This document shows, one piece after another, positions 18,378 through 31,365 of a stretch of 32,931 nt of DNA (position 1 is the first letter of the stretch; every line of letters starts with the position of its first letter). The notes beneath the pieces were generated by a model. The model had not been told where the DNA came from. It searched no databases and saw only the letters and a list, made by a program, of their open reading frames with translations. The DNA comes from Actinomycetes bacterium. GTDB lineage: Bacteria; Actinomycetota; Acidimicrobiia; Acidimicrobiales; RAAP-2. Both the position numbers and the translations under genes were made by a program. Location of the stretch: assembly GCA_021791635.1 (NCBI GenBank), contig JAJYWF010000015.1, positions 1 to 32,931 of the forward strand, given 5' to 3'.

Positions 18378-19601
18378 TCAGCCGATGAGCTTGATGTAGT
18401 CGAACATCGGCAAGTACAGGCAGATGATGATGGTGCCGACGACCGCGCCCATCATCACCACGAGGAGCGGCTCGAGGATCGAGGTCAGGTTGTCCACGGT
18501 CTGGTTGACCTCGCCGTTGTAGAAGTCCGAGATCCGCTGAAGCATCTCGTCGAGGGCACCGGTCTGCTCGCCCACTTCCACCATCTGGACGACGAGGGGT
18601 GGGAACACGTCGTGAGAGCGCATGGGATCGGCGAACGGCTTCCCTTCGCGAACGGCGGCCTTCGTGTCCATCAGGGCCTGAGCCACCACCGCGTTCCCCG
18701 CCGCTTGGGCGACGATGTCGAGGGCCTCCATGGCCGGCACGCCGGCCGCCAGGAGCGACGACAGCGTCGAGGAGAAGCGGCTGAGGGCCGCCTTGTGGGC
18801 CAGCGGCCCGAAGATGGGGGGCTTGAGCTTGAAGGAGTCCCACTTGAGGCGCCCGGTGTCGGTCCTGATCCACCGGCGAAACACGATGACGGCGATCACG
18901 ACCACCGCCAAGATGATGAGCACCCTCCAGCTGGCCAGGGTGTTGGAGACCTTGATCAAGGCCAGGGTGGGTCCCGGAAGCGGCCCGCCGAGGGTCTTGA
19001 ACAGCCTCTTGAAGATGGGGACGATGACGATCATCATGGCCAGGAAGATGATCCCGATCACGCAGACCACCACCACCGGGTAGGTCATGGCGCCCCGGAT
19101 CTTCCGGGAGAGCTCCACCTGCTTCTCGAGCTGGGTCGCCGTGCTCTTCAAGACGGTGTCGATCGAACCACCGATCTCACCGGCCTGGACCATCGACACG
19201 TACAGGCTGTTGAACACCTTGGGATGCTTGGCCAGAGCAGCCGACAGGGTCGACCCTGCTTCCACGTCGTTGCGGACCTCGAGCAGCTTCTGGCCCAGGT
19301 ACTTGTTCTCCACCTGGTTCGCCAGCACGGCCAATGCCCGGCTGATCGACAGTCCCGAGTCCACCATGGTGGCGAACTGCCGGGTGAAGACCGCCACCTC
19401 CTTGGGCTTGATCCGGTCGGTGAAGCCCGGGATCACGATCTCCGTCGAGAGCGTCCCGCCGGTCACCGGCGTGACCGACACCGGCATGTAGCCCATCTCC
19501 CGCAGGCGGGCGACGACCACCGGCATGCTGTCGGCTTCCAGCTTCCCTTGGATCAGCTTCCCGGCCTGGTCCCGGACCTTGTAGTCGAACGTGGTCGCCA
19601 T
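18378..19601 (-). CDS. pilC: Type IV pilus inner-membrane platform protein PilC
   Basis: A 407-residue GspF-family protein forming the membrane platform on which the PilB and PilT motors act. It starts MATTFDYKVRDQAGKLIQG, the usual N-terminal strand, and contains two copies of the cytoplasmic helical GspF domain. The first includes VAVFTRQFATMVDSGLSISRAL, the second LSRFSSTLSSLLAAGVPAMEAL. Three hydrophobic helices follow (about 170-195, 220-245 and 375-400). The pairing TGALDEMLQRISDFYN before the last helix is family-typical. Length is normal. The start is supported by the Shine-Dalgarno GAGGAGGGG just before it. It belongs to the pilB-pilT-pilC unit. Confidence 0.96.
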   Translation of the reverse strand: MATTFDYKVRDQAGKLIQGKLEADSMPVVVARLREMGYMPVSVTPVTGGTLSTEIVIPGFTDRIKPKEVAVFTRQFATMVDSGLSISRALAVLANQVENKYLGQKLLEVRNDVEAGSTLSAALAKHPKVFNSLYVSMVQAGEIGGSIDTVLKSTATQLEKQVELSRKIRGAMTYPVVVVCVIGIIFLAMMIVIVPIFKRLFKTLGGPLPGPTLALIKVSNTLASWRVLIILAVVVIAVIVFRRWIRTDTGRLKWDSFKLKPPIFGPLAHKAALSRFSSTLSSLLAAGVPAMEALDIVAQAAGNAVVAQALMDTKAAVREGKPFADPMRSHDVFPPLVVQMVEVGEQTGALDEMLQRISDFYNGEVNQTVDNLTSILEPLLVVMMGAVVGTIIICLYLPMFDYIKLIG

Positions 19602-19667: not shown

Positions 19668-21323
19668 TCACGCCCCCCTCAGGTGGTTCCTGAAGTCCTC
19701 TTCGCTCCGACAACGGTCCATCGCCACCCCCTGGGTGATGACCTGCTGCTGGACCAAGGTCGCCAGGCTCTGGTCCATCGTCTGCATCCCGTACTGGCCA
19801 CCGGTCTGCATCAAAGAGTAGATCTGATGCGTCTTGGCCCCGCGGATGAGGTTCTGGACGGCCGTGGTGCACACCAGCACCTCGGCGGCGACGCAGCGAC
19901 CGTCGCCCGATGCGGTGGGGACGAGCTGCTGGGTGACGACGCCCTGGAGCGACGACCCGAGCTGGATACGGATCTGGTCCTGCTGGTTCGGCGGGAACAC
20001 GTCGATGATCCGATCGATGGTCGAAGGCGCATCCTGGGTGTGGAGGGTGGCGAAGACCAGGTGACCGGTCTCGGCCGCCGTCAAGGCCGTGGCGATGGTC
20101 TCGAGGTCCCGGAGCTCACCCACCAAGATGACGTCGGGGTCCTGGCGCAGCACCCGGCGGAGGGCCTCCGAGAAGGACGCGGTGTCGGCGCCGACCTCCC
20201 GCTGGCTGATCACCGAGCGCTTGTGGCCGTGGAGGAACTCGATGGGATCTTCCACGGTCACGATGTGCAGCGGCTTGGATCGGTTGATGATGTCGATCAA
20301 CGACGCCAGCGAGGTGGACTTCCCCGAGCCGGTCGGTCCGGTGACCAGCACCAGCCCCCGGCGGAGGTCCGTGAAACCCCGGATGGCTGCGGGGAGCCCG
20401 AGGGTCTCGAACTCGGGGATCTCGTGGGGGATCGGCCGGAGGGCCACGGCAACCGAACCCCGCTGGAGGCAGACGTTCACCCGGAACCTTCCGACCCCGG
20501 CGATGGTGTGGGAGGTGTCGAGCTCGTGCTCGGCTTCGAACCGTTCACGCTGGGTCTGAGGCAGTATCCCGAAGATCATGTCCCTCAGGGTGCTGTTGTC
20601 GATACGTCCCACGTCCTCCATCGGGCGCAGCGCGCCGTGCAGGCGCACCGTCGGGGGCATGTTGGCCGTGAGGTGGAGGTCGGACGCCCCGATGCTCACC
20701 GCGTACCGCAGCAGGTCGTCGACGTGCAGAGGGGTGTCGGTCAGCCCCTGGGCGCGGTTCCGGCTTCCCGAAGTCGGGGTCGGGGAAGTCCCGTTCCCAG
20801 CGGTGGCGGCGCCGGCATGGGCGGAAGAACCCGCCGCCGCGGTGGTGGTCGCAGCCGTAGTGGCAGTGCCGTTGCCCCCCCCTCCTACGAGGTGGGCGAT
20901 GGTCACCGGGTCACCCAGGGCCGGGACGACCTCTCGCCCCATCAGGTCGCTCAGCGACTTGACGTCGGCGGGCTCGGGTGGCTCGGCGAAGACCACGACC
21001 GCCTGGTTCCCCACCACCCGGACGGCCACCGCCTGGTGGTCCTGGGCCAGGAGGGTGGGGACCAGGTTCACTGCCTCGGGGGACGGCGGCTCGGCCTGGA
21101 GGTCCACCACCGGGAGCCGGGCCAGCTGAGCCAGCATGTTCACGGCTACCGGGGCGCTCACCACGCCTTGGGCGATGAGCAGCGCCCCGAGGGACACCCC
21201 ACCCTCGGACGCCTGGGCCAGGACCGGGGCCAGGGCATCTTCGGTCACGTAGCCGTCGCTGACCAGGGCCCGGCCCAGCCGGCGTGACCATTCAGTTCGC
21301 GTCGCTGCCGAGAGGGGGCTCAC
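19668..21323 (-). CDS. pilT: PilT-like retraction ATPase with PilB-type N-terminal domain
   Basis: A 551-residue chimera. Residues about 1-145 form a GspE/MshEN-like domain (RRLGRALVSDGYVTEDAL, then MLAQLARLPVVDLQAEPPSP and a PxDV-type EPADVKSLSDLMGREVVPALG), normally found on extension ATPases. A Gly/Ala/Thr/Ser linker (about 150-195) precedes a full PilT motor: ASDLHL, Walker A GPTGSGKST near residue 328, the Asp box EDPIEFLHGHKRS, Walker B PDVILVGELRD, the His box GHLVFATLHTQDA, and the PilT-type VQNLIRGAKTHQI in place of AIRNLIRE. It has no tetracysteine zinc site, unlike PilB. Start GTG 21323 overlaps the pilB TGA as GTGA. The motor should power pilus retraction, and the extra domain may let a ligand such as c-di-GMP control it (inference). 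A second, ordinary pilT lies at 25239-26339. Confidence 0.92.
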   Translation of the reverse strand: MSPLSAATRTEWSRRLGRALVSDGYVTEDALAPVLAQASEGGVSLGALLIAQGVVSAPVAVNMLAQLARLPVVDLQAEPPSPEAVNLVPTLLAQDHQAVAVRVVGNQAVVVFAEPPEPADVKSLSDLMGREVVPALGDPVTIAHLVGGGGNGTATTAATTTAAAGSSAHAGAATAGNGTSPTPTSGSRNRAQGLTDTPLHVDDLLRYAVSIGASDLHLTANMPPTVRLHGALRPMEDVGRIDNSTLRDMIFGILPQTQRERFEAEHELDTSHTIAGVGRFRVNVCLQRGSVAVALRPIPHEIPEFETLGLPAAIRGFTDLRRGLVLVTGPTGSGKSTSLASLIDIINRSKPLHIVTVEDPIEFLHGHKRSVISQREVGADTASFSEALRRVLRQDPDVILVGELRDLETIATALTAAETGHLVFATLHTQDAPSTIDRIIDVFPPNQQDQIRIQLGSSLQGVVTQQLVPTASGDGRCVAAEVLVCTTAVQNLIRGAKTHQIYSLMQTGGQYGMQTMDQSLATLVQQQVITQGVAMDRCRSEEDFRNHLRGA

Positions 21324-24097
21324 ACGACCACCCTGAGGACCTCTTCGAGCGTGGTCTCACCGCTCAGCGCCTTCAGCAGCCCGTCCCGCCGCAGGGAGCG
21401 CATGCCCTGTTCCACAGCCATGCGCTCGATGTTCACAATGGACTCCTGCTCGATGATCATCCGGTCAATCTCCTCGCTCAATGTCATGACTTCGGCCAGC
21501 ACCGCCCGGCCGAAGTACCCCGTGTGGCTGCAGCTCCGACACCCGACGGCCCGGTACAGGGTCGACGTGTCGAGATCCTCTATGTCTGTCTCGTGGTACC
21601 CAGCCGAGAAGAAGTCCTTCTCCGAAGCTTCATAGGGCTCCTTGCACTGATCGCACAGGATTCGGGCCAATCGCTGGGTCAGCACGCAACTGAGCGACGA
21701 CGTGACCAGGAACGGCTCGATACCCATCTCGGTGAGCCGGAGGGGGGTGGCCGCGGCCGAGTTGGTGTGGAGGGTGGACAGCACCAGGTGCCCTGAGAGG
21801 GCCGCCTCCATGGCGATGGTCGCGGTGTCAGAGTCGCGGATCTCCCCGATGAGCACGACGTCGGGGTCAGCCCTCAAGATGGACTTGAGGGCCGTGGAGA
21901 AGTGGAGCCCGGCCTTCTTGTTGATCTGGACCTGGGTGATGCCGTCGATCTGGTACTCGACTGGGTCCTCCACGGTCACCACCGACTTCTCCTTGGTCAC
22001 CACTTCCTGGAGGGTGGCGTACAGGGTCGTCGTCTTGCCAGCGCCGGTGGGCCCGGTCACCAATATGACACCGTAGGGATGCTTGTACGCCCGGGCGTAG
22101 CGCTCGAGGGTGTCGGAGAAGAAGCCGAGCTCGGGCAGCGACCTGATGCTGGCCGACTTGTCCAGGAGGCGCATGACGCACGTCTCTCCGAACATCGAGG
22201 GCAGGGTGGCCAACCTCAAGTCGATCTGGCGGTCGCTCACCGACAACGACACTCGACCTTCTTGGGGGACGCGGTGCTCGGTGATGTCCATCTCGCCGAG
22301 CACCTTGAGCCGGCTCACCACGGACGAGTGGATGGACGCCGACGCCGAGGTGGCGTCGTGCATGACCCCGTCGATCCGGAACCGGATCCGCAGGCGCTTC
22401 GGCGTCGGCTCGATGTGGATGTCCGACGCCCGTTCGTTCAGGGCCTGGAGGATGAGCAGGTTCACGTAGCGGACGATGGGCGCGTCCTCGACGACCGCCT
22501 GAAGGCTCTCGAGCTCGAAGCCCGCACTCGCTCCGGAAGCTGCGTCGCTGGCCGCATCGAGAGCCACTCCTTCCACGTCGGCGTCGACGTTCTGGGAGTA
22601 GCGCACGTGCGTGGCGATCTGCGAGCGGGTGGCCACGACTGGGGTGAAGTTCCGCCCCATGATCGTCCGCAGGTCGTCCATGGCGAACACGTCCGTCGGG
22701 TTGGCCATCGCCACCAGGGGCACGCCGTTCTCCATCTTGATCGGCAGCACCATGTGGTGACGGGCCACCGACTCGGGGATCAGCCCGGCGACCGAGGTGT
22801 CGATGGGGAACTTGTCGAGGTCCACGAACTCGAGGCCCACCTCCTGGGCCATGGCCCGGACCAGGTCCTCCTCGGTGGCCATGTGGCGGTTGTAGAGGTA
22901 GCGGGCCAGGGACTCCCCGGTGGCCTGGTGCTCCCTGAGGGCTGCTTCCATCTCCTCGACGGTGACGCGGCCGGCCTCGACGAGGACCCGGGCCAGCGGC
23001 GGTCCGAAGGCGATCGACGGCGGCAGCCCGCCGGTGTCCACGACGCCGTACCCTTCGGGAACCGGTGGTGCATCACCGGTGGATGCCCCGACCGGCTGGT
23101 AGGAGCCGTACTCCGACGAGGGGGGCGGAGCCAGGATCTCCCGCAGCGACTCTTCGAGAGACGTGCTCGCCGTCGAAGGTGCTGGCTCCGGTGTCGCCCC
23201 CTCCACCGTGGTCGCGACGGAGTCGTAGTCGGCCGTGCCCAACGGCTCGGCCAGGTCGGAATCGGTGGCGTCACCGGCCAGCGCGTCAATCTCTGGCGCC
23301 GCTGCGAGCAACTCCTCGTCGGCGATCCCGCCATCCTCCTCTCCCTCTCCCTCTCGGACCAACGATCCCACCTCGGGCTCGATCACCTCAACCTCGGACA
23401 TCCCTGCCTTCTCGGCGACATCGGCCTCATCGGCTTCGGCCGCACCGGTCGCATCGGTCGCCTTGCGCCCCTTGCCCCGCGTCCCTCTGGCACGCCCGGT
23501 GGTGGCGTGCCCGTTACCCACGTGGCCGTTGGCGTCCTGCCCGTTCGAACTCCCGAGATCGTCGGCCGGCGGCAGCGTGCCGAGCTTCATCTCCGGCGCT
23601 TCCTCGAGCGCTTCGGCTTCCCCGCCGCCGACGGCATCTTCGAGCACCGCTTCGTCGACCACCGCAACCGAAGCCGTGGCCGGTTCGGTCTCCAACTCGG
23701 GCTCGGACGCCGGCCGGTTGCCCTCCCCGGGCTCTCCACCGTCGTCCCCTTGGACCGACACCACGGCGTCGGCCGCCTCGTCCTCCTCGGCGTCGCCTGG
23801 AGCGTAGAGCTGGCGGATCGCCCGTTCCACCTGGTCGGGACGGGCGACCACGGCGACGAACTCGCGCCCCACGCTGGTCCGCAGAGCGTCCATGGCGAAG
23901 AGATCACCCGGATCGGACACCGCGATGACCGGCGTGCCCAGTCGACGGCCGATGGGCACGGCGTGATGGCGACGGGCGACGGCTTCGGTCAAGAGTGCGG
24001 CCGCGCCAGGGGCGAGTGCCGACTGAGTGAGGTCCACGAACCGCAGTCCGTGCTGCTCAGCCAGTCGCCGGGCACTTTCCTCGGCGTCGTCGCCCAT
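21320..24097 (-). CDS. pilB: Type IV pilus assembly ATPase PilB with duplicated N-terminal domain
   Basis: A 925-residue extension motor, much longer than the usual 550-580. Residues about 5-100 are a GspE_N/MshEN domain (LAEQHGLRFVDL, then VIAVSDPGDLFAMDALR). Residues about 100-350 are an acidic, Glu/Asp/Ala/Thr-rich presumably disordered linker. A second MshEN region (about 355-510) repeats the pattern (MAQEVGLEFVDL and VAMANPTDVFAMDDLR). The ATPase core from about 535 has ASDIHIEPTPKRLRIRFR, Walker A GPTGAGKTTT near 685, VEDPVEYQIDG, Walker B PDVVLIGEIRD, His box GHLVLSTLHTNSA, and the tetracysteine ILCDQC...GCRSC zinc site. ATG 24097 has GAGGGGGA at a proper distance; GTG 24100 is adjacent. 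It heads the unit pilB-pilT-pilC. Confidence 0.95.
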   Translation of the reverse strand: MGDDAEESARRLAEQHGLRFVDLTQSALAPGAAALLTEAVARRHHAVPIGRRLGTPVIAVSDPGDLFAMDALRTSVGREFVAVVARPDQVERAIRQLYAPGDAEEDEAADAVVSVQGDDGGEPGEGNRPASEPELETEPATASVAVVDEAVLEDAVGGGEAEALEEAPEMKLGTLPPADDLGSSNGQDANGHVGNGHATTGRARGTRGKGRKATDATGAAEADEADVAEKAGMSEVEVIEPEVGSLVREGEGEEDGGIADEELLAAAPEIDALAGDATDSDLAEPLGTADYDSVATTVEGATPEPAPSTASTSLEESLREILAPPPSSEYGSYQPVGASTGDAPPVPEGYGVVDTGGLPPSIAFGPPLARVLVEAGRVTVEEMEAALREHQATGESLARYLYNRHMATEEDLVRAMAQEVGLEFVDLDKFPIDTSVAGLIPESVARHHMVLPIKMENGVPLVAMANPTDVFAMDDLRTIMGRNFTPVVATRSQIATHVRYSQNVDADVEGVALDAASDAASGASAGFELESLQAVVEDAPIVRYVNLLILQALNERASDIHIEPTPKRLRIRFRIDGVMHDATSASASIHSSVVSRLKVLGEMDITEHRVPQEGRVSLSVSDRQIDLRLATLPSMFGETCVMRLLDKSASIRSLPELGFFSDTLERYARAYKHPYGVILVTGPTGAGKTTTLYATLQEVVTKEKSVVTVEDPVEYQIDGITQVQINKKAGLHFSTALKSILRADPDVVLIGEIRDSDTATIAMEAALSGHLVLSTLHTNSAAATPLRLTEMGIEPFLVTSSLSCVLTQRLARILCDQCKEPYEASEKDFFSAGYHETDIEDLDTSTLYRAVGCRSCSHTGYFGRAVLAEVMTLSEEIDRMIIEQESIVNIERMAVEQGMRSLRRDGLLKALSGETTLEEVLRVVV

Positions 24098-24127
24098 CAC
24101 TTTCCCCCTCAGTCGGTTCTCCGCCCG

Positions 24128-24342: not shown

Positions 24343-25134
24343 ATGGCACCGGCGACGGCCCAGTGGGTGCTCCAGGTGACCGGGGCCGGCCTGTTCGGCC
24401 TGGTCATCGGCTCGTTCCTCAACGTCGTCATCTACCGGGTACCCCGCAAGATGTCTGTCGTCCGGCCGCCCTCGCACTGCCCTACCTGTGGCACGCAACT
24501 CGGCGCCGTCGAGAACGTACCGTTGATCTCCTGGGTGCTCCTGCGGGCGAAGTGCCGGCACTGCCACGCATCAATCTCGCCCCGCTATCCCCTGGTGGAG
24601 CTGGCAACCGGTCTGGCGTTCCTCGGACTGGCCTGGTCGACCGAGGTCACCCACGCCCTGCCCTTCCTCCTCGTCGTGGCAGGGTCGGCACTGGCTGGCG
24701 GGGGCATCGCCGCCGACGGCCTGGCCGTCCCCCCGTCCATTGCAGCCGTGGCATTCGGGGGTGCGGCCGGGCTCGCCGCGCTGGCCGCAGCTTCGGGCCA
24801 GCCCGGACGCGTCGGCTGGTCGGCCCTCGGGGGGGTGACCGTGGCGGTGGCAGGTGCAGCAGCCCTGGCCGCCACGCCGTCTCGACCACGACGTCGCCAG
24901 CTCCGCGAGCGATGGGGGTCAGTGCTCACCTTGACGGCTCTGGGCTGGTCGGCCAGCTGGCTCTGGGCGCCCGGAGGCGTGATCTTCGCCGGGTGGATCA
25001 CCCTGGTGCTGCTAGCGACCCAGGTCGAGCGGGCACGGTCACGCGCCAGGGGAATTCCGATCCCCGTCGCCATCGTGACCTTGGGGGGTCTGACCCTGCT
25101 GGTGGCCGGGTCTCTCCTCAGCACCCGGGTCTGA
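24343..25134 (+). CDS. Prepilin-peptidase (PilD/A24)-like protein, second catalytic Asp apparently missing
   Basis: A 263-residue polytopic protein. The N-terminal A24 methylase-type domain is well conserved: GSFLNVVIYRVPRKM, then HCPTCG and CRHCHASISPRYPLVE with the two CxxC zinc pairs. In active enzymes the peptidase half has one Asp near LxxxxxxxP and another in GxGD. D125 in IAADGLAVPPSI fits the first. The region aligned with GxGD by following context (ALGW) reads ERWGSVLTLTALGW, so Ser193 stands where Asp is expected. No other GxGD exists in the protein. About six hydrophobic segments are present. It may be a pseudo-enzyme that retains methylation or zinc binding, or an enzyme using another residue. 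It is divergent from pilB. The assignment to the family is firm, activity is doubtful. Confidence 0.88.
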   Translation: MAPATAQWVLQVTGAGLFGLVIGSFLNVVIYRVPRKMSVVRPPSHCPTCGTQLGAVENVPLISWVLLRAKCRHCHASISPRYPLVELATGLAFLGLAWSTEVTHALPFLLVVAGSALAGGGIAADGLAVPPSIAAVAFGGAAGLAALAAASGQPGRVGWSALGGVTVAVAGAAALAATPSRPRRRQLRERWGSVLTLTALGWSASWLWAPGGVIFAGWITLVLLATQVERARSRARGIPIPVAIVTLGGLTLLVAGSLLSTRV

Positions 25135-25238: not shown

Positions 25239-26339
25239 CTACCAGTTCGTCCCGGTGGTGACCAGCCCGCGACGTTCGAGCATGACCCGGAGATCGTGCG
25301 GGTTCGACGCCATGAGGAGGGCCTCGTCGAGCGTCACGGCTCCGTTCTGGAGAAGCTGGGCCAGGCTCTGGTCGAACGTCTGCATCCCGTAGTACTCACC
25401 TTCGGCGATGATCTGCTCGATGTCGGCGGTGAGGTCGGGATCGGCGATGCTCTGCCGGATGCGGCCGTTCACGACCATGATCTCCAACGCCGGGACACGC
25501 CCCCTTCCATCGGCGCGGCGGACGAGGCGCTGGGCTACGGTCCCCTGGAGCGCTCCGGACAGCGACACCCTGGCCTGGGCCTGCTGGTGCGGCGGGAAGA
25601 AGTCGATGACCCGGTTGATCGTCTCGGTGGCATTGATGGTGTGAAGGGTCGTGAGCACAAGGTGACCCGTCTCGGCGGCGGAGAGCGCCGCCGAGGCCGT
25701 CTCGATGTCCCGCATCTCGCCCACCAGGATCACATCGGGATCCTGGCGGAGCACCACCCGCATGGCAGTGGCGAAGCTCTCGGTGTCGAACCCCACTTCC
25801 CTCTGGTCCACGGCGGCGACGTTGTCCCGGTGGAGGTACTCGATCGGGTCTTCAATGGTGATGATGTGGCACGGTCGAGTCCGATTGATGTAGTCGACCA
25901 TGGTGGCCAGGGTCGTCGTCTTTCCCGAGCCCGTCGGTCCCGTGACCAGGACCAGCCCCCGCTGCCCGGACGCCAGCTCGTAGATGACCGGGGGCAGCCC
26001 GAGCTCTTCGGCCGACCCCGGATTGGGCCGGACCCATCGCAGGGCGATCGCTACGGAGCTTCGCTGGAAGTAGGCGTTCACGCGGAACCTTCCGACGCCG
26101 GCCACCGAATAGGCGAAGTCCGCCTCGTGGCGCTTCTCGAAGATCTCGGCCACCTGGGCCGGCATGATCGCTTCGGCCAGCGCCTCGGTGTCTTGAGGGC
26201 TGAACCTCTCCTCGTCGGCGAGGGTGTAGAGGACGCCGTCGATCCGCATCCGCGGCGGAGCTCCGGGCTTCACGTGCAGGTCCGAACCCTGTCGTTCGGC
26301 CAGCATGGAGAGCAGCCGGTCGAGGTCGCCTTGGTCCAC
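25239..26339 (-). CDS. pilT: Pilus retraction ATPase PilT (canonical)
   Basis: A 366-residue hexameric ATPase of standard length and layout. The N-terminal PAS-like region begins MDQGDLDRLLSMLAERQGSDLH with VKPGAPPRMRIDGVL. Walker A is GPTGSGKTTT near residue 132, followed by EDPIEYLHRDNVAAVDQREVG, Walker B DPDVILVGEMRD, His box TGHLVLTTLHTINATET, and VNGRIRQSIADPD in the position of the AIRNLIRE retraction motif. The Asp/Glu and His boxes are complete. The start codon is GTG at 26339 with TAGGCT 8 nt upstream and no Shine-Dalgarno. It is convergent with the PilD-like gene and separated from the pilB unit, so it may be regulated independently of the MshEN-bearing paralogue. Confidence 0.95.
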   Translation of the reverse strand: MDQGDLDRLLSMLAERQGSDLHVKPGAPPRMRIDGVLYTLADEERFSPQDTEALAEAIMPAQVAEIFEKRHEADFAYSVAGVGRFRVNAYFQRSSVAIALRWVRPNPGSAEELGLPPVIYELASGQRGLVLVTGPTGSGKTTTLATMVDYINRTRPCHIITIEDPIEYLHRDNVAAVDQREVGFDTESFATAMRVVLRQDPDVILVGEMRDIETASAALSAAETGHLVLTTLHTINATETINRVIDFFPPHQQAQARVSLSGALQGTVAQRLVRRADGRGRVPALEIMVVNGRIRQSIADPDLTADIEQIIAEGEYYGMQTFDQSLAQLLQNGAVTLDEALLMASNPHDLRVMLERRGLVTTGTNW

Positions 26340-29122: not shown

Positions 29123-30775
29123 ATGGCTGAACGGGTTGTCGGACTGGACATCGGGACCAGTGCCATCCGTGCCGCAGAGGTGACCATCAGTCCCGGGTCC
29201 CGCCCGATCCTCGAGAACTTCGGTCAGGTCGGCCTACCCACCGGATCTGTCGTCGGCGGGGAGATCCGTGACCGGGCAGCGATCGCCAGAGCGATCCGGC
29301 GCCTATGGGATGAAGGCGGGTTCTCCGAACGAAAGGTGGTCCTGGGCCTGGCCGGCCTCCGGGCCATCACCCGCGAGATCGACGTCCCACCGATCCCCCC
29401 CGACGAGCTGGACGATGCTCTGCGCTTCCAGGCCGACGAGATGATCCCGTTCCCGATGGACCAGACGGTGATCTCAGGCAAGGTCATGGCCCAGTTCACC
29501 GACGCCGACGGGGCCCCCCAGCTCAGAGTCCTCATGGCCGTCGCCCACCGCGAGGTCATCGACGCCGCAGTGGCCGCCGTGCAGGATGCCGGCCTGGAAC
29601 CGATCGGGATCGACCTGAACACGGCGGCGCTGGCTCGGACCTTCTACGACCCCACGTTCGGCGGTGGTCCTGAAGCGATCGTGTCGGTGGGCGCCGGTCT
29701 GACCATGGTCGTGATCCACCAAGGTGGACAGCTGCAGTTCGTCCGTACCATCGACCTCGGCGGCCAGAGCGTTACCCAGTCGGTGGCCAGCGCCCTCGAC
29801 CTCCCCTTGGCTGATGCGGAAGGCATCAAGCGCCGCTTGGGCGAGCCCGGAATCCACGACAGCCGCGCCGAGGAAGCGGCACGGGACACGGTCGAAGAGC
29901 TGGTCGGGGAGGTCCACAACTCGATTCGCTTCTTCTCTTCCCTCCCGGGCCGCAGCAAGCCGACCCGGCTCCTGGTCACCGGCGCCGGGTCCAGAACCGC
30001 GGGGCTCGTCTCCCGGCTCCAGGAGGGGTTGGACATCCCCGTCCTCCCGGCCTCGCCACTCTCGCTGCTCGAGAGCCATCTCTCGGTGTCCCCCGAAGAG
30101 GCGGCCACCATCGACCCGGTGCTTGCCGTATCGGTCGGGCTGGCCCTCCCCGACCCGAGCGGGAAGTCGTTCAATCTCCTCCCCCACGAAGTGCGAGCCG
30201 GCTACGTCGCCAAGCGGATCTACCGCACCTTGATAGCCGTCGCCGGTGTGATCCTGGTGCTGGTGATCGCCGGCACCGTCTGGCGGATCCTGAGCGTCAA
30301 TCACGCCGAGAGCCAGGTCACCACACTCACGTCCACCGTCCATACCATCAACACAGTTGAGATCCCCAAGTACAACAAAGTGGTGGCGGCCAAGGCTGCG
30401 GTGACAAGTTTGGCGAAGTCCTACATCCCGCTGGTCTCTCCCATGGCCGACTGGCTCGCCGTGCTGAACCAGTTCGCCACCTACCTGCCCGCCACAGCCG
30501 TCGTGACCGACATGAGCCTTCAGTCGTCATTAAGCGCAGCAGCTTCGTCGTCAGCAGCTGGCGTCGGCACCGGGACGGCCAGCGTGCAGGTGGCTTCCAT
30601 TCCTTCGTACGTCCAGTACGGCAACACCATGAGCACGGTGCCGGTGCTGACCTTCGCACAGGCTAGCGGGGGAATTACCGCGAATACCGAGATTTCCTTC
30701 TCATCGTCGTTCCAAATCGGCGTGGCAGCCCGTACGCGCCAGATCACCCTGTTCACAACGGGAGGACCCTCGTGA
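29123..30775 (+). CDS. PilM-PilN fusion protein
   Basis: A 550-residue protein that joins two alignment-complex subunits normally made separately. Residues 1-345 are PilM: an actin-like ATPase fold with phosphate-1 loop GLDIGTSAIRAAEV, the inserted IPPDELDDALRFQADEMIPF, and the second phosphate region VSVGAGLTMVVIHQGG plus VTGAGSRTAG. At 349-354 comes SFNLLP, equal to the INLLP peptide with which PilN grips PilM, then basic residues, a transmembrane helix at about 369-391 (LIAVAGVILVLVIAGTVW), a coiled coil, and the periplasmic PilN ferredoxin-like part. The tether would make the PilM:PilN contact permanent. ATG 29123 follows a GGGGGG ribosome-binding stretch. The TGA overlaps the pilO GTG. 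Confidence 0.9.
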   Translation: MAERVVGLDIGTSAIRAAEVTISPGSRPILENFGQVGLPTGSVVGGEIRDRAAIARAIRRLWDEGGFSERKVVLGLAGLRAITREIDVPPIPPDELDDALRFQADEMIPFPMDQTVISGKVMAQFTDADGAPQLRVLMAVAHREVIDAAVAAVQDAGLEPIGIDLNTAALARTFYDPTFGGGPEAIVSVGAGLTMVVIHQGGQLQFVRTIDLGGQSVTQSVASALDLPLADAEGIKRRLGEPGIHDSRAEEAARDTVEELVGEVHNSIRFFSSLPGRSKPTRLLVTGAGSRTAGLVSRLQEGLDIPVLPASPLSLLESHLSVSPEEAATIDPVLAVSVGLALPDPSGKSFNLLPHEVRAGYVAKRIYRTLIAVAGVILVLVIAGTVWRILSVNHAESQVTTLTSTVHTINTVEIPKYNKVVAAKAAVTSLAKSYIPLVSPMADWLAVLNQFATYLPATAVVTDMSLQSSLSAAASSSAAGVGTGTASVQVASIPSYVQYGNTMSTVPVLTFAQASGGITANTEISFSSSFQIGVAARTRQITLFTTGGPS

Positions 30776-31365
30776 GCGACACTACGAGCACGGCTGACGT
30801 GCTCCGCAGTACCCCGGTCCTGATCGGGATCGTGGTCACCTTGGTGGTGGTGCTCATCTGGCTGTTCGCCTTCTTCCTTCCACAAGGCTCGAAGATCTCG
30901 AAGCTCGACGCCCAGGTGCAGACACTCCAACAGAAGGTCACCCAGGGGAACGCCCGGATCGCCGTTCTGAAGCGGGACTCTCAGACAGCACCCAAGCTAG
31001 CTACCGAGTTAGCCAAATTGAAGCAGTACATCCCCGCGACAGCAGGCGTCTACAACTACATCAATACGATCACAGCGACCGTCAAGGCGTCGGGAACGAA
31101 GTTGTCGACGATCTCAACCTCCCCGGAGTCCCCAGCGCCGACTGCGAGCAGCTACTACGCAATTCCCGTCTCCCTGTCGGTGACCGGCACGTACGACCAA
31201 GTCCTCAAGCTCATCACAGACATCTACGCACTCCCCAGGTTGACGATCATCCCGACAGTGCAGATCTCGGGGGGTGGAGTGGGAACGAACCGATCCACCG
31301 TGTTGTCGGTGTCGATGCGCCTCGAGACCTTCACCACGTCCAAACCGCCGATCGCGGCACCGTGA
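30772..31365 (+). CDS. pilO: Type IV pilus alignment protein PilO
   Basis: A 197-residue bitopic membrane protein. A short cytoplasmic N-terminus is followed by one transmembrane helix at about 15-37 (VLIGIVVTLVVVLIWLFAFF), a coiled coil (SKLDAQVQTLQQKVTQGNARIAVL), and a periplasmic ferredoxin-like domain with YYAIPVSLSVTGTYDQVLKLI and LTIIPTVQISG. It pairs with the PilN part of the fusion to link the inner-membrane motor to the outer parts of the machine. Length is normal. The start is GTG 30772 inside the GTGA overlap with the PilMN stop. Its TGA in turn overlaps the GTG of the following lipoprotein, so the three are translationally chained. Confidence 0.88.
   Translation: MSDTTSTADVLRSTPVLIGIVVTLVVVLIWLFAFFLPQGSKISKLDAQVQTLQQKVTQGNARIAVLKRDSQTAPKLATELAKLKQYIPATAGVYNYINTITATVKASGTKLSTISTSPESPAPTASSYYAIPVSLSVTGTYDQVLKLITDIYALPRLTIIPTVQISGGGVGTNRSTVLSVSMRLETFTTSKPPIAAP

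Follow-up and report, generated by a model that had tools for sequence, protein, structure and literature searches.

Pilin cleavage and pilin methylation are probably divided between two PilD paralogues by complementary loss in an actinobacterium

A bifunctional PilD prepilin peptidase has probably been divided between two genes in the actinobacterial genome studied here. The window (the whole stretch of DNA that was analysed, 32,931 nucleotides) encodes, between pilB and pilT, a PilD paralogue that would represent one half of this enzyme. Complementary loss in a pair of paralogues appears to have separated the two activities of the enzyme, with methyl transfer falling to the window protein. 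We favour this reading because of the loss of aspartates, the complementary domains, conservation, synteny and selection, together with the zinc dependence of methylation by PilD. In Pseudomonas aeruginosa PilD, zinc is required for methylation and not for cleavage, and mutation of the cysteines, or of the glycine and the basic residue before the third cysteine, affects methylation (PMC3584216). The simplest reading is a relay in which the two proteins would handle the same pilins one after the other. A paralogue encoded beside aroC would use its aspartate pair to cut the prepilin leader peptide between Gly and Phe. The window protein would then bind the exposed N-terminal Phe and methylate it from SAM via its zinc (CxxC...CxxC) domain, while its former peptidase domain would serve as a catalytically dead membrane scaffold.

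The window protein retains the methylase domain and lacks both catalytic aspartates

A Pfam search identified the methylase/zinc domain PF06750 in the window protein (E 3e-36, 123.7 bits versus a curated cut-off of 23), and no match to the peptidase domain PF01478 was obtained even at E≤10. Eight transmembrane helices are predicted, and the AlphaFold2 model (pLDDT 91.3, pTM 0.88) shows the full eight-helix fold. NCBIfam provides no name for this protein or for the partner peptidase described below. Foldseek searches of both models against the PDB gave no significant match, and a sequence search of the PDB returned no PilD relative.

Consistent with the initial annotation, the methylase/zinc half is retained, with its four cysteines arranged as CxxC-Xn-CxxC (C46/C49 and C71/C74). 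Before the third cysteine, the basic residue is kept as K70, and the glycine found in 18 of 20 aligned family members is replaced by A69. This substitution is a real caution for the window species, where the copy could be a weak methylase.

The catalytic residues of the peptidase half were assigned by alignment. In hhalign comparisons with bifunctional relatives and with the partner peptidase, A123 lies opposite the first catalytic aspartate of the D-x6-P motif, and P130 corresponds to its proline. D125, which had been taken as the intact first catalytic aspartate, pairs in these profile-profile alignments with a non-catalytic residue two positions further on, so that the profile alignment proposed as a check against A24 peptidases corrected the assignment. 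The alignment with bifunctional relatives is highly significant (E 2e-58) and covers residues 8-174; as hhalign support stops at residue 174, the placement of the second site comes from MAFFT only. There, as the initial annotation had noticed, the GxGD segment is altered: residues 190-193 read RWGS, S193 occupies the position of the second aspartate, and GxGD is absent throughout the protein. D125 is the only aspartate of the entire protein, so no aspartate pair is possible and the conclusion of a dead peptidase does not depend on the assignment of S193. As judged from the sequence, both catalytic aspartates are absent and a dyad cannot be formed from the protein's own residues. Together with the missing PF01478 match, this supports the proposed loss of peptidase activity.

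An intact peptidase is encoded beside aroC in the same genome

A profile search of the genome detected PF06750 once, in the window gene, and PF01478 once, on another contig (G000:C70). The assembly is a draft of 155 contigs with an estimated completeness of 95.7%. The second gene is flanked by a NifU-like gene and by aroC and matches PF01478 with 43 bits versus a cut-off of 26.5. Both aspartates are present, D133 in D-x6-P and D197 in GFGD. The CxxC pairs and the zinc/methylase domain are missing, and a low-complexity linker modelled with low confidence takes the place of the zinc domain. The first helix recalls GSFLNVVIYRVP (GVFMDVLASRVP) and appears to be a relic of a full-length PilD. The window gene had been described as the only PilD-like gene of the locus, which holds for the window and not for the genome. 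Likewise, the proposed search for a second PilD with GxGD did yield an A24 gene with GFGD, albeit one without the zinc/methylase domain. Processing by another peptidase and a regulatory or methyl-transferring role of the window protein had been posed as alternatives; the evidence favours both together, with the peptidase encoded elsewhere and the methylase half retained.

The window gene is accompanied by genes for a pilus machine (Table 1). The PilC platform protein is the only T2SSF protein of the genome, and three pilins carry the G|F...E5 pattern, which indicates that the genome encodes one pilus machine, with no sign of a Tad system. Two further features of the locus were observed. One PilT-type ATPase carries an MshEN domain, which is more typical of assembly ATPases of the PilB type, and the other PilT-type ATPase lacks it. 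The PilM protein (550 amino acids) has a transmembrane helix in its C-terminal extension and is perhaps a PilM-PilN fusion.

Table 1. Features of the window and location of the partner gene
Feature	Position	Strand	Basis or remark
PilC platform, two T2SSF domains	18408..19388	-	sole T2SSF protein of genome
Second PilT-type ATPase, N-terminal MshEN	19668..21323	-	domain search
PilB assembly ATPase (T2SSE, MshEN domains)	21320..24100	-	divergent neighbour of methylase-type gene
Putative methylase-retaining, peptidase-dead PilD paralogue	24343..25134	+	ORF, 263 aa; PF06750 match
PF06750 methylase/zinc domain, residues 17-99	24391..24639	+	Pfam; invariant columns within residues 19-86
First CxxC (C46, C49)	24478..24489	+	invariant in family alignment
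A69-K70 and second CxxC (C71, C74)	24547..24564	+	position 69 is Gly in 18/20 aligned members
RYPLVE motif, residues 81-86	24583..24600	+	alignment
A123 at first catalytic Asp position	24709..24711	+	MAFFT and profile-profile alignments
D125, sole Asp of protein, off catalytic position	24715..24717	+	residue count, profile alignment
RWGS (residues 190-193), S193 at GxGD Asp position	24910..24921	+	multiple alignment
PilT-type ATPase (T2SSE)	25239..26339	-	domain search, synteny
PilM, C-terminal extension (possible PilN fusion)	29123..30775	+	domain search
PilO	30772..31365	+	domain search
Partner A24 peptidase, 273 aa	L003:7583-8404		PF01478; between NifU-like gene and aroC

The complementary pair is conserved in related genomes

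To place the pair in context, 80 genes from 61 related genomes whose sequences were long enough for comparison were analysed. The window's family was sampled with 37 genomes from 21 genera, and the hosts of window-type genes are described as soil and peat bacteria. The dead-peptidase form occurs in 21 family genomes belonging to 12 genera, and 20 of these also carry the peptidase-only partner; the exception (G032) is a genome that is 74% complete. Five genomes of the family have a fused enzyme with both aspartates instead. The GxGD aspartate is found in none of the 22 dead-form proteins versus all 58 fused or peptidase-only homologues, a pattern that is not due to chance. The position of the first aspartate is occupied by D, E, A or S in the dead form, as expected if loss of the second aspartate had already ended activity.

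The domain assignments are equally complementary. PF06750 was detected in 20/20 members of the window's protein family and PF01478 in 0/20 (E≤0.1), and the partner family gave the reverse result (PF01478 20/20, PF06750 0/20). A residue table of the 80 genes shows the cysteines and RYxxxE, and no GxGD aspartate, in every complete dead-peptidase protein; all partners have both aspartates, and the cysteines are absent from every peptidase-only gene except one distinct paralogue. In the alignment of the 20 family members, invariant columns are confined to residues 19-86, and the peptidase half has become eroded and variable. Synteny is conserved as well: pilB adjoins the methylase-type gene in all family loci whose contig extends far enough, and aroC lies directly downstream of the partner in 18 of 20 cases. 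The gene of G015 is broken across two contigs.

Several variants were observed in the comparison set. In three genera the C-terminal part of the dead-peptidase protein contains a Cys-rich insert (L081:5928-7034, L083:3057-4028, L082, L085, L065, L073), which in G002 is a run of CGTGTCGTGTCG-type protein repeats and possibly an extra metal site. Four genomes (G037, G041, G047 and G058; loci L131, L109, L117 and L115) carry the aroC-linked peptidase only and no methylase domain. In one genus a further paralogue, which has only the peptidase and a relic N-terminus, is located away from aroC (L138 on G005:C24 and L141 on G024:C58), and G005 additionally has an intact fused PilD.

Comparison of substitution rates points to purifying selection on each retained half. 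For the methylase domain, eight of nine pairs of relatives gave dN/dS values of 0.09-0.28, and the ninth, a close pair at low divergence, gave 0.52. In all nine pairs this value is lower than that of the dead C-terminal part. The peptidase part of the partner shows a dN/dS of 0.10-0.43. Since both halves are kept under selection, the split is not the decay of a useless gene.

Intermediate and reduced forms suggest repeated partitioning

Genomes outside the typical arrangement may represent stages of the process. G048 has two fully intact copies, one at the pil locus and one at the aro locus. G044, G061 and G115 combine a dead pil-type copy with a partner in which the Cys pairs are kept but the motifs GSFLN and RYPxxE have disappeared, and in the window's family the partition is complete. 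In three other families (represented by G039, G094 and G108), a methylase gene of ~100-111 amino acids is accompanied by a gene at aroC that encodes only the peptidase. The methylase-only protein of G108 has an altered Cys pattern. In G061 a 155-residue form is located between pilB and pilT. Among 110 genomes sampled across the class, the fused form is usual and the split form represents a minority. Two further candidates for methylase-only proteins, in G046 and G109, were rejected as genes cut by contig ends, and apparent losses of GxGD in several other named genomes proved to be intact variants such as GDGDLY and GLGDVA.

Phylogenetic analysis united the 21 partners of the family in a single clade (UFBoot 91). 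The aroC-linked copy of G044, which still carries all four cysteines, branches as sister to this clade. The tree of the N-terminal domain is poorly resolved and the methylase-only proteins cannot be placed in it, and synteny is the stronger evidence on the history of the partition. From these patterns we infer the order of events, the number of origins and the duplication history. On balance it seems plausible that complementary loss in two PilD paralogues has repeatedly given rise to free-standing pilin N-methyltransferases among Acidimicrobiia-type actinobacteria, and that the methylase domain of ~100-111 residues found in at least three families is a working enzyme without the peptidase bundle. 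Similar GxGD-less, PilD-like proteins with a methylase domain are also carried by two planctomycete MAGs (L178, Pirellulales; L224, Planctomycetales). The genome of L224 has separate A24 genes too, possibly reflecting an independent planctomycete split.

Alternative explanations

Instead of transferring methyl groups, the window protein could bind prepilins or zinc as a pseudoprotease, with a regulatory or scaffolding role in pilus assembly. The complete eight-helix fold modelled at high confidence, the position beside pilB and the replacement of the conserved glycine by A69 would all fit such a role. We nevertheless regard it as unlikely, as it is the methylase domain that holds the conserved positions, and most aligned members keep the glycine. 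Moreover, the short proteins of the three other families lack the peptidase scaffold, which is therefore not the retained part. That the gene is a functionless, decaying pseudogene might be suggested by the eroded and variable peptidase half, but the reading frame is open at the same locus in 12 genera of one family and its methylase domain is under purifying selection, making this explanation very improbable. Even less credit can be given to a peptidase that is still active through a non-canonical residue: although an intact membrane fold is predicted, the sole aspartate lies off the catalytic position and the genome has an intact A24 peptidase gene at another site.

Another explanation concerns the partner, which might serve other substrates while the pilins of the locus are cut by an enzyme missing from the assembly. 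The incompleteness of the assembly and the location of the two genes on different contigs leave some room for this. It is quite improbable given the single T2SSF platform gene, the lack of any visible Tad system and the recurrence of the pair in 20 related genomes; fused-type extra peptidases occur only in G019 and G021 and fall in a separate clade. Partitioning of the PilD activities thus remains our preferred reading, in which we infer an active methyltransferase role for the window protein.

Implications and comparison with known systems

N-methylation of pilins has been known since 1978, yet its function 'remains a mystery' (PMC10191384), and the assignment of PF06750 as the methylase 'remains to be formally demonstrated' (PMC4471445). 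Neither of these two reviews describes a methylase without a peptidase. No published stand-alone PF06750 protein or pilin methylase was found in the literature searched, a search that left subscription journals mostly uncovered. A natural separation in which each activity is kept by selection would imply that methylation has a fitness value of its own. The split would also allow one activity to be removed or assayed without touching the other, so that the role of pilin methylation could be tested alone, and lineages with only the aroC-side peptidase would provide a natural comparison for the loss of methylation.

Peptidases that lack the methylase domain, such as TadV and FlaK, are already known, and the window protein would be the reverse case, a methylase half without a peptidase. 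It resembles PilD/XcpA of Pseudomonas aeruginosa (PF06750 and PF01478, MEROPS A24A) in its four-Cys methylase/zinc domain, the RYPxxE motif, the eight transmembrane helices and the type IV pilus locus, and differs from it in lacking both catalytic aspartates and in having the peptidase on a separate gene. The partner, in turn, is similar to the peptidases of the TadV/CpaA/FppA type and to archaeal FlaK/PibD, which also consist of a peptidase domain without the methylase domain. Unlike these, it keeps a relic of PilD in its first helix, adjoins aroC and coexists with a methylase-only protein. A division of pilus-machine functions between two genes is likewise seen in the platform proteins TadB and TadC, which have been reported as products of gene fission (PMC6668835, PMC10191384). 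In TadB/TadC, however, one platform has been divided, whereas here two enzymatic activities would have been separated, with each of two paralogues apparently losing the function that the other kept.
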